This document shows, one piece after another, positions 51,533 through 55,068 of a stretch of DNA of 58,190 bases. The stretch spans positions 1-58,190 of the forward strand of contig MWYY01000018.1 in NCBI GenBank assembly GCA_002050355.1, given 5' to 3'. Source of the DNA: Acidobacteria bacterium 28-9. Lineage in GTDB: Bacteria > Acidobacteriota > Blastocatellia > Pyrinomonadales > Pyrinomonadaceae. How positions within the stretch are numbered: the first letter of the stretch is position 1; every line of letters starts with the position of its first letter. The translations under genes were made by a program, and so were the position numbers. The notes beneath the pieces were generated by a model. That model searched no databases and had not been told where the DNA came from. It saw only the letters and a list, made by a program, of their open reading frames with translations.

Positions 51533-52471
51533 TTAAGTCCGGCGCGATTTGCGATTGACCGCGAAATCAAAAACGTCCGGGCGCGAGTAATGACCGGAAA
51601 CGTCGAGCGTCATTTTCTCTTTATCAATCTCAGTTAAATCGAGTTCGGCAGTGATGATTGTGTCTGCGTCAAAAACCGGCTCGACGACAAAACTTCCGCC
51701 AGGCGCGATAATGCAGCTTCCGCCGCGTAAGACATTTTCCGGCAATTTCGACAAATCCGTTTCAGATAAAAGCTCCGCCGGCAAATCCGCCGCTTTCATC
51801 ATCAAGCCCGCCGCGAGAACGAAACATCTGCCCTCAAAAGCGTAATGACGGCTCGCAATTTGGTGCGTTTCGTGAACGGTCGGGAAAACCGCGACGTGAA
51901 TATCTTCGCCGTCGTTGTGTAAGGCTTGCCGCGCCATCGGCATCCAATGTTCCCAGCAAATAAGCCCGCCGACGCGACCGAAATCGGTTTTGACGGCTTC
52001 GAGTCCCGCCGCGTCGCCTTGTCCCCAAACTAATCTTTCGGTGTAAGTCGGAACGAGTTTGCGATGATGATTGACGAGTTTTCCGTCCGCGCCGAAAGTC
52101 AGCAAAGAATTGTAAAGCGTCCCGTTGCCCGCGCCCTGCTCGACGCGCTCGTTGATTCCGATTATCAAAACAATTTTGTGTTTGGCAGCGATTTCGCTAA
52201 GCGTTTCTGTTTCCTTGCCCGGCACGACGACGCTATTTCGGCGCAGACGGGCGAAAACTCGTTTCGTCGGCTCATGATTCCAGAGCGCGGCATTCGGGCA
52301 GAAATCGAGCCACGCCGGATAACCCGCCAGCCACGTTTCGCCGAACGCGACGAGCTTTGCGCCGAGTCTCGCGGCTTCTTCGATTTTCGAGACGGCTTTC
52401 TCGACGCTCGCCGCCAAATTGTTAAAAACCGGACTCGCCTGCACGATTCCGACGATGATTTTGTCCGCCAT
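51533..52471 (-). CDS. Nitrilase-superfamily carbon-nitrogen hydrolase
   Basis: A 312-residue cytoplasmic enzyme of the true nitrilase branch. The catalytic triad is in place: Glu45 (FGETWLAGYPAW), Lys138 (NHHRKLVPTYTERLVWGQGD) and Cys172 (GGLICWEHWMPMARQAL). CWEHWMP is typical of nitrilases and cyanide-converting enzymes rather than amidases. It hydrolyses an organic nitrile or cyanide to an acid or amide plus ammonia. It follows the probable selenoprotein by 4 bp and so is co-translated with it. The C-terminus HYSRPDVFDF is also nitrilase-like. Confidence 0.93.
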   Translation of the reverse strand: MADKIIVGIVQASPVFNNLAASVEKAVSKIEEAARLGAKLVAFGETWLAGYPAWLDFCPNAALWNHEPTKRVFARLRRNSVVVPGKETETLSEIAAKHKIVLIIGINERVEQGAGNGTLYNSLLTFGADGKLVNHHRKLVPTYTERLVWGQGDAAGLEAVKTDFGRVGGLICWEHWMPMARQALHNDGEDIHVAVFPTVHETHQIASRHYAFEGRCFVLAAGLMMKAADLPAELLSETDLSKLPENVLRGGSCIIAPGGSFVVEPVFDADTIITAELDLTEIDKEKMTLDVSGHYSRPDVFDFAVNRKSRRT

Positions 52472-52475
52472 AAAA

Positions 52476-53288
52476 TTACCCGTTCGCGCTCAATCGGCTC
52501 TCGATTTCCTTGCCTTCTTTTCGCGCCTGCGCCCAGATTTTCGGAAAATAAAAAACGTCGCCGCTCTCTTCGGCTCGTTCGATTCTCTCAAGCGCGGTCA
52601 AAATAATTTCTCTTTGCAATCGCGTGTGAAACGGCACGCCGAAATGATGTCCCATCATAAACGGCAAAAACACCGCTCGCGGCGGTTTGATGTGTTCGGT
52701 TACGTCCAAAGCGACGGAGATTGAGACGGTCGGGATCCCTCTTTTTTCAATGGCGCGCTGAACCAGCGCGATGCTCTGATGGCAAATCGGTCACGCCGGG
52801 GCGAGCAGCGCGGCATCCGGTTTTTCCGCTTCAACCGCATCGGCAATTTCTTCGGCAAGCGTTTGCTCCAATCTTTCGGCATTCATATTGTAGCCGATAA
52901 ACGAAAAGAAATTCGCTGTCAGCCCGCCGATAATTTTCGCTTTTGCAAATTCCTGTAATCGTTCAATCGGAAAGATAACATTCAAATCGCGCTTTGCGCC
53001 GGCGGTCGGATATTTGAGTTGATGAATTTCCAAATCCGAAGGTTTTGAATCGGAAGGAACACGCCTGAAAGTATAGTCGCCGACGGGATGAACCGTATCG
53101 AAAGGCAAAGAATTTTTCGGCTGAACTCCGGCGGTGCTGACAAATGTTAAGCGCGATTCCGGTAAAGGTTTTTTCAACTTCGCCAACGGAATGAAATCGC
53201 TTTTCGTAATCATCGCGCCCGGATAGCGTTCGTTAACCGTCGCCCATAAACCGGGACGCAGTTGATTTGTTTCCTTAAAGTTCTCCAT
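52476..53288 (-). CDS. Probable selenoprotein, GrdB/PrdB-type reductase family (UGA read as selenocysteine)
   Basis: From ATG 53288 (MENFKETNQLRPGLWATVNE) the frame runs 165 codons to a TGA at 52793-52791 and continues open for 104 more codons to a proper stop at 52476. It reads ALLAPA-U-PICHQSIALVQRA, that is U166-x-x-C169, where the glycine/sarcosine/betaine/proline reductase selenoprotein B family has its redox-active Sec or Cys. Both sides are family-like (LTFVSTAGVQP, FDTVHPVGDYTFR; FLPFMMGHHFG, RLQREIILTALERI). A 7-bp hairpin starts 20 bases after the TGA. The start overlaps a small gene by 14 bp; nitrilase follows 4 bp later. Role in this aerobe unknown. Confidence 0.8.
52754..52793 (-). 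promoter_or_regulatory. UGA codon with SECIS-like hairpin
   Basis: On the minus strand, TGA (52793-52791) is followed after 20 bases by CGCGCTG-GTT-CAGCGCG (52770-52754), a perfect 7-bp stem with a G-first three-base loop. Bacterial SECIS elements lie directly 3' of the UGA with the apical loop some 16-37 bases away; here it is 27. The hairpin sits inside coding sequence, as expected in bacteria. Confidence 0.7.
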
Positions 53289-53565
53289 CGTGAATCCATT
53301 CTCCCGAACGCCGGACAAAATAAAAATGCAGGTGAAAGAAAAGATGCGCGAGCGTCGCCGCGTCTTTTTCAGCCAGAGTTTCGAGGATAAATTCGCGCTT
53401 CGTTTCAGGAACATCGAGCAATAATTTCAACGCTTCAATCCACGCCTTGTCAATTTCTTTCGCGCCCGCCGCTTCGTCGCCGTCGCCGAAATGGAGACGC
53501 ACGTAACGAATCAGTTTTTCCGTATCACCATCGGCAACGGCTTTTTTCAAATAATCTAATGACAC
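53275..53565 (-). CDS. Small helical protein upstream of the selenoprotein
   Basis: A 96-residue product from a GTG start with AAGGAA 10 bases upstream: MSLDYLKKAVADGDTEKLIR, YVRLHFGDGDEAAGAKEIDK, and FILETLAEKDAATLAHLFFH, LHFYFVRRSGEWIHDGEL. It is acidic and helical with several His near the end. I do not recognise a family. Its 3' end overlaps the selenoprotein start by 14 bases and it heads the three-gene operon, so it likely works with the reductase or nitrilase. Confidence 0.7.
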   Translation of the reverse strand: MSLDYLKKAVADGDTEKLIRYVRLHFGDGDEAAGAKEIDKAWIEALKLLLDVPETKREFILETLAEKDAATLAHLFFHLHFYFVRRSGEWIHDGEL

Positions 53566-53582
53566 AAATGATAAATTCCTTT

Positions 53583-54305
53583 TTAGGTCGAACTTATTCC
53601 CGTTAAGTAAAGGCTGAGGGCTTCCGTGTTAACCGTCAGAGGTTTATTCCGTTCATACTGCACGAGACCGCGACGGCGCAGTTTGCCCATCGTCACAGTT
53701 ACGTGCGGACGGCTCATCGCCGCCATCTGCGCGAGTTCGTCGTGGCTGACCGGCAGAACGGTTTGACCTTCAAGCGCGTCGCTCAGCTTTCCGCGAGTGG
53801 CTGCAATGTGCAACAGAACGCGCCCCAGGCGTTCTTCCGCGCCGCGATAAGCGAGAAATTCCACGCGCCGCTGGCAATCGCTCAAACGACAGCAAAACGT
53901 AAAAGTGAAAGCTTGAATCAATTCGCGGCTCGTTTGCAGAAAAGCCATAAAATCGTCGAGCTTGATTTCGAGAACTTCGCTTTCGGCGACGGCGCGGGCG
54001 TAAGTTCCCCGCAGGAAATGTTTTTTCGGAGCGCAGAAACATAATTCGCCGAACGGCTCGCCGGGTTTGATAACGCCGAACGCGATTTCGCGCCCGTCGC
54101 GGTCGCTGGAGACGATGGCGACTTGCCCGCTTTGCAAAAAGAAAATGCCGTCCGAGCGGTCGTCCGGTTTCCAAATATTGCCGCCTTTTCGATGACGGCG
54201 AGCGCGTCCGAGCGAATTGTCGCGCGGAACATTATCAACGGTCAGTCCGGTCAAAATCTCGCAATCGTGATGATCCCGCAGCGGCGGTATATTATTTTGC
54301 GGCAT
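53583..54305 (-). CDS. Crp/Fnr-family transcriptional regulator 2
   Basis: A 240-residue regulator: cyclic-nucleotide-binding-like fold (FFLQSGQVAIVSSDRDGREI, AFGVIKPGEPFGELCFC), dimer helix, and winged HTH (LPVSHDELAQMAAMSRPHVT, VTMGKLRRRGLVQYERNKPL). The sensor retains a GEPFGELC-type phosphate-binding cassette, though its usual Arg is not obvious. It lies 17 bp upstream of the small gene, selenoprotein and nitrilase on the same strand and may lead that operon. It is divergent from the hydrogenase protease gene; an FNR-format palindrome lies between. Confidence 0.9.
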   Translation of the reverse strand: MPQNNIPPLRDHHDCEILTGLTVDNVPRDNSLGRARRHRKGGNIWKPDDRSDGIFFLQSGQVAIVSSDRDGREIAFGVIKPGEPFGELCFCAPKKHFLRGTYARAVAESEVLEIKLDDFMAFLQTSRELIQAFTFTFCCRLSDCQRRVEFLAYRGAEERLGRVLLHIAATRGKLSDALEGQTVLPVSHDELAQMAAMSRPHVTVTMGKLRRRGLVQYERNKPLTVNTEALSLYLTGISST

Positions 54306-54453
54306 ATTCGGTGTTTATATAAAAATGTTTCTCAGGCAGTCAGGATGCGAATTCTACTAAAGCAAATGTTGTTTCGCTTGTTCAAAGCAGAAACTCACCA
54401 CCGAGACAAATTTGTATTTCCTTTATACTATCATTCGTCGGCTTGTTTTTTGT

Positions 54454-54467
54454 GTTAGCGCGCTAAC
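54454..54467. promoter_or_regulatory. FNR-format palindrome GTTAG-N4-CTAAC (site 3)
   Basis: GTTAGCGCGCTAAC, a fully self-complementary 14-mer between the divergent Crp/Fnr 2 gene (start 54305) and the hydrogenase protease gene (start 54580). It can serve either direction. The remainder of 54306-54579 shows no other recognisable feature. Confidence 0.6.
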
Positions 54468-54579
54468 GCGATTAGTCGTGACACCTAAAATAGCGCAGAT
54501 GTTTCCGGTGAGTGAAATACTCGGGGAAATTTTTAGAGTTTTTGCCGTCAGTTTTTACCGAAAGTTTTCTGTGATTTAT

Positions 54580-55068
54580 ATGAAGATTCTAGTAGCGGGA
54601 ATGGGCAATGTTTTGCGCGGCGACGACGGCTTTGGAATTAGAGTCATCGAAGAACTGTCTGTAAATCATCAATTTCCCGAAGGAATTGATTTGTATGAAG
54701 CGGGTATCGGCGGCATCGGATTCGTGCAGGAGTTAATGAAGGGTTATGACGCGCTGATTATTATTGATGCGATAGACAAAGGCGCGGCAGCCGGAACGCT
54801 TTTTGTTGTCGAACCGCTTGAAAGCGAATCCGCAATAGAAAATCTGGAACTTCATCAATCAATGGTTGATATGCACTACGCCGACCCGTCGAAGGTTTTG
54901 CTGATGGCGAAAGCATTGAACGTCTGTCCGCCGAAAGTATTTCTTGTCGGCTGTCAGCCGGAATATGTTGACGATGCAATCGAAGGCTTGCGTCCGCCCG
55001 TAGAACGCGCAGTGCCGCAAGCCGTCAAAGAAGTTTTGTCTTTGATAGATGAATTGTATGAAACTTAA
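54580..55068 (+). CDS. NiFe-hydrogenase maturation protease (HyaD/HupD family)
   Basis: From ATG 54580 (MKILVAGMGNVLRGDDGFGI) the 162-residue product carries the family signature GMGNVLRGDDGFG with the nickel-contacting Asp, then DLYEAGIGGIGFVQEL with the second Glu/Asp position, IIDAIDKGAAAGTLFVVEPL and LHQSMVDMHYADPSKVLLMA with the His. These endopeptidases trim the C-terminus of the hydrogenase large subunit after nickel insertion. A longer upstream frame to 54412 is not part of it. No hydrogenase structural gene is in the window; it must lie elsewhere or have been lost. Confidence 0.92.
   Translation: MKILVAGMGNVLRGDDGFGIRVIEELSVNHQFPEGIDLYEAGIGGIGFVQELMKGYDALIIIDAIDKGAAAGTLFVVEPLESESAIENLELHQSMVDMHYADPSKVLLMAKALNVCPPKVFLVGCQPEYVDDAIEGLRPPVERAVPQAVKEVLSLIDELYET

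Follow-up and report, generated by a model that had tools for sequence, protein, structure and literature searches.

A predicted PrdB-like selenoprotein and its helical partner in Acidobacteria bacterium 28-9 and related loci

We analysed a 58,190-nt stretch of DNA from Acidobacteria bacterium 28-9 (contig MWYY01000018.1; "the window" below always means this whole stretch). It contains a gene that, judging from its reading frame and its relatives, almost certainly encodes a selenoprotein. By sequence comparison this protein is a new subfamily of the known PrdB-type family, and alignments across many genomes indicate that it very probably forms a functional two-protein unit with the 96-aa product of the adjoining gene. 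An earlier sequence-only reading had proposed a probable new selenoprotein. This stands at the level of the subfamily and goes too far at the level of the family, because PrdB-type selenoproteins with a UxxC motif were described in excerpts of reports from 2005 and 2008 (PMC1088965, PMC2398784).

The reading frame and its TGA codon

The gene lies at 52476..53288 on the minus strand and has 270 codons from an ATG start to a TAA stop. Its sole in-frame TGA, at 52791..52793, is codon 166 and sits in the context LLAPA-U-PICHQS. Codon 169 (52782..52784) is TGC for Cys, and the motif of this GrdB/PrdB-like protein is U166-P-I-C169. The sequence-only reading had described this frame with one TGA at U-P-I-C, and both the coordinates and the protein-like sequence on either side, which is conserved, are correct; it gave no strand, and the gene runs from 53288 to 52476. 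Frame translation of the plus strand over 52476-53288 meets several stops in the matching frame. The two neighbours had also been placed correctly: a short upstream gene of 96 codons (53565-53275) shares 14 nt with the start of the selenoprotein gene, and a nitrilase with its ATG at 52471 follows 4 bp after the stop. The expectation that gene callers would split the gene in two held for the 5' part, a 207-aa ORF ending at the TGA, and failed for the 3' part, which yields no minus-strand ORF of at least 80 aa. The Sec codon TGA is kept in relatives, which indicates that the frame is more than chance.

We collected 55 related loci in one scan of an 84,980-species genome collection, using six 8-residue segments of the window's protein as exact seeds, none spanning residue 166. 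Since the seeds avoid this residue and match exact stretches only, far-off Cys forms may have been missed. Phyla were assigned from record names or ranks, and most of the loci come from metagenome-assembled genomes (MAGs). They belong to Acidobacteriota, Bacillota, Actinomycetota, Gemmatimonadota, Planctomycetota, Armatimonadota, Verrucomicrobiota, Chloroflexota/Thermomicrobiota, and Eremiobacterota. A search of homologues for Cys or Sec at residue 166, suggested earlier as a check, found the Sec codon in every relative covering the position: TGA in 52 of 52 that span it in one frame, and Cys in none of the 52. Three of the 55 lack such coverage, and one of these (L104) has the TGA in a second frame. 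Seven relatives are Bacillota strains, all seven of whose genomes contain a tRNA-Sec above the cut-off. Sampling 397 genomes from the order that includes Bacillus fonticola gave matches at E <= 1e-40 in 48 genomes, with TGA in all 56 matches listed. Thirty loci fetched from this sample comprised five close orthologs, with TGA in each, and 25 paralogues, with Sec at the aligned site.

The source genome is a 3.65-Mb draft in 117 contigs that is 86.6% complete. All four genes for selenocysteine that had been named for a search (selA, selB, selC, and selD) are present in it above their own cut-offs. The tRNA-Sec (selC) scored 72.9 bits against a cut-off of 47 and has the anticodon tca; selB scored 404 bits and selA 544 bits. 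There are two selD matches above the cut-off (L018 and L019, the second on a 5.8-kb contig), and both carry a single in-frame TGA, suggesting that SelD itself is probably a selenoprotein in this genome.

The TGA could instead reflect a mutation in a pseudogene or a mistake in sequencing or assembly: the genome is a draft of 117 contigs, and a second copy of the gene in it (G000:C2) carries a premature TAG. Against this, the codon is TGA in 52 of 52 relatives, including a Bacillus fonticola record titled complete genome, the frame is intact on either side, and the hairpin described below is constrained. We therefore consider an error or a decayed gene extremely unlikely. The second copy belongs to another set of small gene, selenoprotein, and nitrilase in the source genome (L132, contig C2, 1-3258). 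A Crp-type gene upstream of it reads like that of the window, the contig end cuts the nitrilase, and in the selenoprotein frame the Sec site is TGA and the premature TAG comes further on.

Family membership and the 96-aa partner

Residues 27-163 of the selenoprotein match Pfam GRDB (PF07355) at 27.9 bits, above the gathering score of 22. The best NCBIfam match is PrdB (TIGR04483, 1.2e-37), a model matched by all 37 aligned members. The window's protein scores 129.7 bits against TIGR04483, below its cut-off of 300, and 14.3 bits against the UGSC family (NF041046), below its cut-off of 125. PF09338, which represents the PrdA/GrdE-type pyruvoyl subunit, had no match in eight genomes (the source and the seven Bacillota), in a search that did match the Terrisporobacter prd plasmid (record W01) used as a positive control. 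With the source genome at 86.6% completeness its absence there is weak evidence, to which the seven Bacillota genomes add weight. A match to GRDB, a PrdB score below cut-off, and no PF09338 together suggest that the protein probably works in a GrdB/PrdB-like manner while falling outside the tests for D-proline and glycine reductases. This bears out the earlier proposal of a GrdB/PrdB-like yet different reductase. The selenoprotein model (pLDDT 89) had no Foldseek match in the PDB at E <= 0.001 (best E 0.017), and the sequence matched no PDB chain at E <= 1. No clostridium is named in the record titles of the 55 relatives. Among 72,556 plasmid records there was no close ortholog; 24 match, all under 60% identity.

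Could the gene simply encode the usual catalytic subunit of D-proline reductase, PrdB, in a setting not recognised before? TIGR04483 is its best NCBIfam match, and it resembles a plasmid-encoded PrdB (P0003) in length, in 33% identity, in the aligned Sec with a UxxC motif, and in the VQRAIE-GIPTV stretch that follows. However, it reaches less than half of the curated PrdB score, and its motif is UPIC (UPIU in some relatives) where PrdB has UGTC. In addition, no PrdA-type gene was found in the source and Bacillota genomes, in contrast to the control, and the small neighbour differs, the small gene of the plasmid appearing by eye unrelated to the 96-aa protein. These differences make an ordinary PrdB very unlikely, and a distinct PrdB-type subfamily is the reading that we prefer. 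The GrdB proteins of glycine, sarcosine, and betaine reductase (PF07355, TIGR01918) share the GRDB match and, by analogy, a Sec nucleophile. The window's protein is, however, much shorter than the GrdB models of 431-435 positions and scores below all of their NCBIfam cut-offs, and no GrdE-type match was found in the eight genomes searched.

Related selenoproteins have been described from other settings. Excerpts of two ocean metagenome surveys report PrdB-type proteins with UxxC, one with 42 Sec sequences (PMC1088965) and the other with 235 Sec and 110 Cys sequences (PMC2398784). These belong to the same broad family and, likened here by description only, have Sec in UxxC. They include Cys forms (PMC2398784), whereas the window's clade showed none, and the excerpts do not mention the partner, a nitrilase, or UxxU for PrdB. 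FarB, as outlined in part of PMC10838667, is a GrdB-like protein proposed to cleave the C-F bond of monofluoroacetate. It is likewise a GrdB relative thought to attack an electrophilic small molecule through Sec, with a use in detoxification, suggesting that a GrdB/PrdB-like scaffold may serve this purpose. It differs in coming from anaerobic Synergistota and from an operon with the GrdE-like FarE and a radical SAM protein. In titles and the openings of abstracts we found no account of the partner, the nitrilase link, or a GrdB/PrdB protein with two Sec residues.

The partner gene (53275..53565, minus strand, GTG start) lies beside the selenoprotein gene in 48 of the 51 loci with enough upstream DNA; it is absent from L067, L102, and L105. 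Among 195 relative genomes, source genome included, 14 had a partner match at E <= 0.001, and 13 of these are exactly the 13 genomes with a close selenoprotein ortholog. The fourteenth (G035) has only a marginal partner fragment (E 9e-4) near a nitrilase. This decayed-looking fragment (L129, G035:C4, 1172-1255) is just upstream of a nitrilase 69% identical to that of the window; the contig carries no selenoprotein and may hold a remnant of a partner-selenoprotein-nitrilase unit. The partner adjoins all five orthologs in the Bacillus fonticola order sample, occurs in two of 396 genomes sampled from the window's own phylum, and was not found within about 1.5 kb on each side of 42 paralogue loci that encode other PrdB-like proteins.

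The predicted structure of the partner has five helices (pLDDT 91). Over 28 sequences the mean column identity is 80%, with R20, R23, H25, D28, W42, H80, W90, H92, and D93 invariant. No Pfam or NCBIfam family reached its cut-off for the window's partner. Across the 28 members the best Pfam match was HAAS (E 0.00066; 10 members match at E <= 0.1), and NCBIfam gave only matches at E >= 0.015. The model had no Foldseek match in the PDB at E <= 10, and its sequence matched only four PDB chains at E 0.45-0.8, which we take as chance. The small gene beside prdB on the Terrisporobacter plasmid, annotated as CBO2463-type, was considered as the same gene and set aside by eye because the sequences read as unrelated.

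We propose that the selenoprotein would be the catalytic subunit of a two-subunit reductase and the helical protein its second subunit. The partner would occupy the place expected for PrdA/GrdE-type pyruvoyl subunits, because its linkage is near-invariant and no PF09338 genes were found. A small, all-helical protein that contains no Cys in the window's version and belongs to no family above cut-off might instead be a translational or assembly helper, such as a chaperone or inhibitor. Yet 80% identity with invariant residues seems high for a helper, and none of the 42 other PrdB-like loci examined was found to have it. We thus regard a helper as unlikely, if a serious contender, and favor a subunit of the enzyme.

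The SECIS-type hairpin and a second Sec codon

A SECIS-type hairpin, H1, is present at 52754..52770 on the minus strand (CGCGCUG-GUU-CAGCGCG). It begins 20 nt 3' of the TGA and is the perfect 7-bp hairpin with a GTT loop noted in the sequence-only reading. It can also be described as a stem of 6-7 bp with the loop GGUUC starting at nt 27 after the TGA. The bacterial SECIS model, in the passages of PMC13188914 that set out its limits, has a loop of 3-9 nt with G in the first two positions, a stem of 4-16 bp, a distance of 16-37 nt from the UGA, and an energy <= -7.5. Compared by hand, H1 falls within these limits (loop GGUUC, 6-7 bp, 26 nt from UGA to loop, -12.9 kcal/mol for the 48-nt stretch); scanning the window against Rfam at gathering scores gave no match. 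The folding energy is ordinary for the composition (z = -0.56; 60 of 200 shuffles fold as well), so energy was left out as evidence and the case for the hairpin is comparative.

Synonymous constraint among 52 members is strongest, of all 10-codon stretches in the gene, at codons 170-179 (excess 0.257 versus a gene mean of 0.041, sd 0.043). The seven Bacillota peak at codons 171-180 (0.639 versus 0.105, sd 0.116). Pairing distinguishes two hairpins: H1, with a 5-nt loop from nt 27, is better paired in 42 of 53 sequences, including the window, and H2, with its loop from nt 18 after the TGA, in the other 11. Nine of the 42 H1 sequences can form five of the six H2 pairs too. In a nine-member H2 subset the constraint peaks away from the hairpin, at codons 125-134 (0.283), and codons 165-175 reach 0.218. 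Loop positions 2-3 of the chosen hairpin are G-U in 53 of 53. Standard pairs fill 99.5% of cells in the H1 stem and 100% in the H2 stem, with one double-changed pair in each; most stem pairs are invariant, so covariation rests on one pair per hairpin. As a control, H1 slid by +3 gave a covariation of 0.083 versus 0.078 for H1, yet only 33.8% of its cells pair. Judged by these alignments, the hairpin is under selection.

Of 53 members, 18 also have TGA at codon 169, giving the motif UPIU; one of them is Bacillus fonticola, whose record is titled complete genome. Planococcus halotolerans has UPIC. We consider it likely that both codons are decoded as Sec in the UPIU members and infer that a single hairpin decodes the two. 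Candidate diselenide motifs (UxxU) are known in Prx-like, metal-binding mercuric-reductase-like, and FmdB families, and tables in parts of two reviews give only UxxC for GrdB and PrdB (PMC9312934, PMC13188914). Those UxxU proteins share with UPIU two Sec residues two residues apart and differ from GrdB/PrdB in family.

H1 is found in 18 of 18 UPIU members. The two TGA codons of UPIU are 9 nt apart, as are H1 and H2. With these equal spacings the loop in UPIU members starts at nt 18 from the second TGA, which is the place of H2 relative to a single TGA. Single-Sec paralogues of three motif classes (UPVCNQ, 2 sequences; UPMC, 8; UYIC, 14) have a 5-nt loop at nt 18, or an equivalent 3-nt loop at nt 19, in 24 of 24. 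In the UPVCQQ class (11 sequences), unlike these, the best loop is at nt 22-23. The plasmid PrdB has only 4-bp hairpins. Other PrdB-like subfamilies (L035-L052 and L139-L163) contain the Sec forms UPMC, UPVCNQ, UYIC, and UPVCQQ, and also Ser forms (ASRLC/ASLLC) in place of Sec.

In a tree of 52 of 56 rows (residue 166 present, at least 200 aa) with six paralogues, the H1/H2 label switches once and UPIU/UPIC switches six times; 11 of 55 inner branches are open and long branches are present. Under equal-cost parsimony a UPIU ancestor of the H1 members takes five steps and a UPIC ancestor seven; when losses cost double the two tie. A UPIU ancestor implies that the second Sec was gained once early on, then lost twice and later regained three times within H1. 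We propose that the clade gained the second Sec and that the hairpin slid by 9 nt, which would have restored its loop to nt 18, counted from the second UGA. In the lineage of the window the second Sec would then have been lost, leaving Cys169, and the shifted hairpin kept. That the UPIC of the window reflects such a later loss has moderate support from the tree.

The linked nitrilase and a proposed function

The downstream gene (51533..52471, minus strand) matches CN_hydrolase (PF00795) at 168.5 bits against a cut-off of 23.2. Against the nearest NCBIfam model, Nit6803 (TIGR04048), it scores 239.4 bits, below the cut-off of 502.6. Among solved structures, the nearest to it are nitrilases, NIT4, and cyanide dihydratases. 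We found a nitrilase match within 1.5 kb of the selenoprotein in 22 of 55 loci versus none of the 42 paralogue loci, for which about 1.5 kb on each side was covered. Thirteen of the 22 are downstream and nine upstream, and two of these nine are encoded on the opposite strand. Five of the matches cover only part of the nitrilase (L058, L061, L077, L084, L101), and in four the identity is only 37-41% (L061, L068, L091, L105). These differing arrangements suggest repeated association. Two further loci have a nitrilase at 2.5-4.6 kb, and the flanking DNA examined contained none in the remaining 31, including all seven Bacillota isolates. The nitrilase is adjacent in 9 of 13 relative genomes that bear the selenoprotein, and in 48 of 195 relatives a nitrilase (E <= 1e-60) occurs where the selenoprotein is missing. 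Thus, the nitrilase operon claimed earlier is a real link that is not universal, and with all seven Bacillota loci lacking a nearby copy the nitrilase is an optional companion. Where it is linked, a place in the same pathway seems reasonably likely.

A Crp/Fnr-type gene lies at 53583..54305 on the minus strand, upstream of the partner and selenoprotein genes. L053 has a counterpart in the upstream position (85% identity), and inspection by eye shows one preceding the second copy in the source genome; it is possible that the product of this gene regulates the unit. A plus-strand ORF divergent from it (54412-55068) is probably what had been called a hydrogenase protease. Among 20 ORFs scanned against Pfam, namely the window's Crp gene and 19 neighbours of the selenoprotein from 14 loci, no recurring function emerged. 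Two neighbourhoods of UPIU members have features of their own. Downstream of one (L081:7075-9235) are a nitronate monooxygenase and then a nitrilase, a hint at nitro or nitrile chemistry, and in the other (L070:5789-6778) an ornithine cyclodeaminase/mu-crystallin-type gene overlaps the stop of the selenoprotein gene.

We suggest the following mechanism. SelA, SelB, SelC, and SelD, with the hairpin starting 20 nt downstream, would decode UGA166 as Sec, as the comparative evidence indicates. Sec166 would attack a small substrate at an electrophilic centre. Cys169 (Sec169 in UPIU) would resolve the intermediate, and the resulting selenylsulfide or diselenide would then be reduced by a thiol reductant. 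These steps are suggested by the conserved UxxC/UxxU motif and by glycine-reductase chemistry. The linked nitrilase would probably, and we say so tentatively, act on that substrate, as a nitrogen-containing compound, or on the product formed from it, as part of detoxification or scavenging.

UxxC/UxxU is also a typical redox motif, and it could act as a dithiol switch in a redox or repair protein with no single metabolite as substrate, such as a thiol/selenol peroxidase-like or methionine-sulfoxide-type reductase. The partner is the only neighbour that recurs across the seven Bacillota loci, and an Mn-catalase-like ORF, a partial model match, adjoins the selenoprotein in Bacillus fonticola, both of which would suit such a role. 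It is less easily reconciled with the GrdB/PrdB family match, the nitrilase linkage, and the 56 invariant columns among 37 aligned selenoprotein sequences from many phyla, which include His, Asp, and Arg and suggest a specific substrate pocket. A redox or repair role therefore appears rather improbable, and we return to a reductase of a small substrate. Taken as a whole, the account of Sec decoding, a two-subunit reductase, attack by Sec, the nitrilase role, and hairpin evolution is in our view probably right. Detoxification of a nitrogen-containing electrophile is a possible but doubtful part of it. Somewhat more likely to hold than to fail, taken jointly, are a family with only Sec at the nucleophile in the members examined, an obligate helical subunit replacing the pyruvoyl subunit, a UPIU diselenide in a third of the members served by one hairpin, a shift of that hairpin by exactly the spacing of the two UGAs when the second Sec arose, and reversion of the window's gene to one Sec with the shifted hairpin kept.

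The analysis points to a selenoenzyme of PrdB/GrdB-like type whose partner is new and tightly linked, and for which no pyruvoyl subunit was found. A clade without Cys forms is awkward for selenoprotein searches that rely on Cys/Sec pairs, as these are described in parts of PMC13188914 and PMC12013277. Some carriers are named Bacillota strains (Planococcus, Bacillus, Paenisporosarcina, Cytobacillus) rather than MAGs, which makes the function accessible to experiment. Members with UPIU offer a natural test of why such an enzyme would use a diselenide, and of whether one bacterial SECIS recodes two nearby UGAs.
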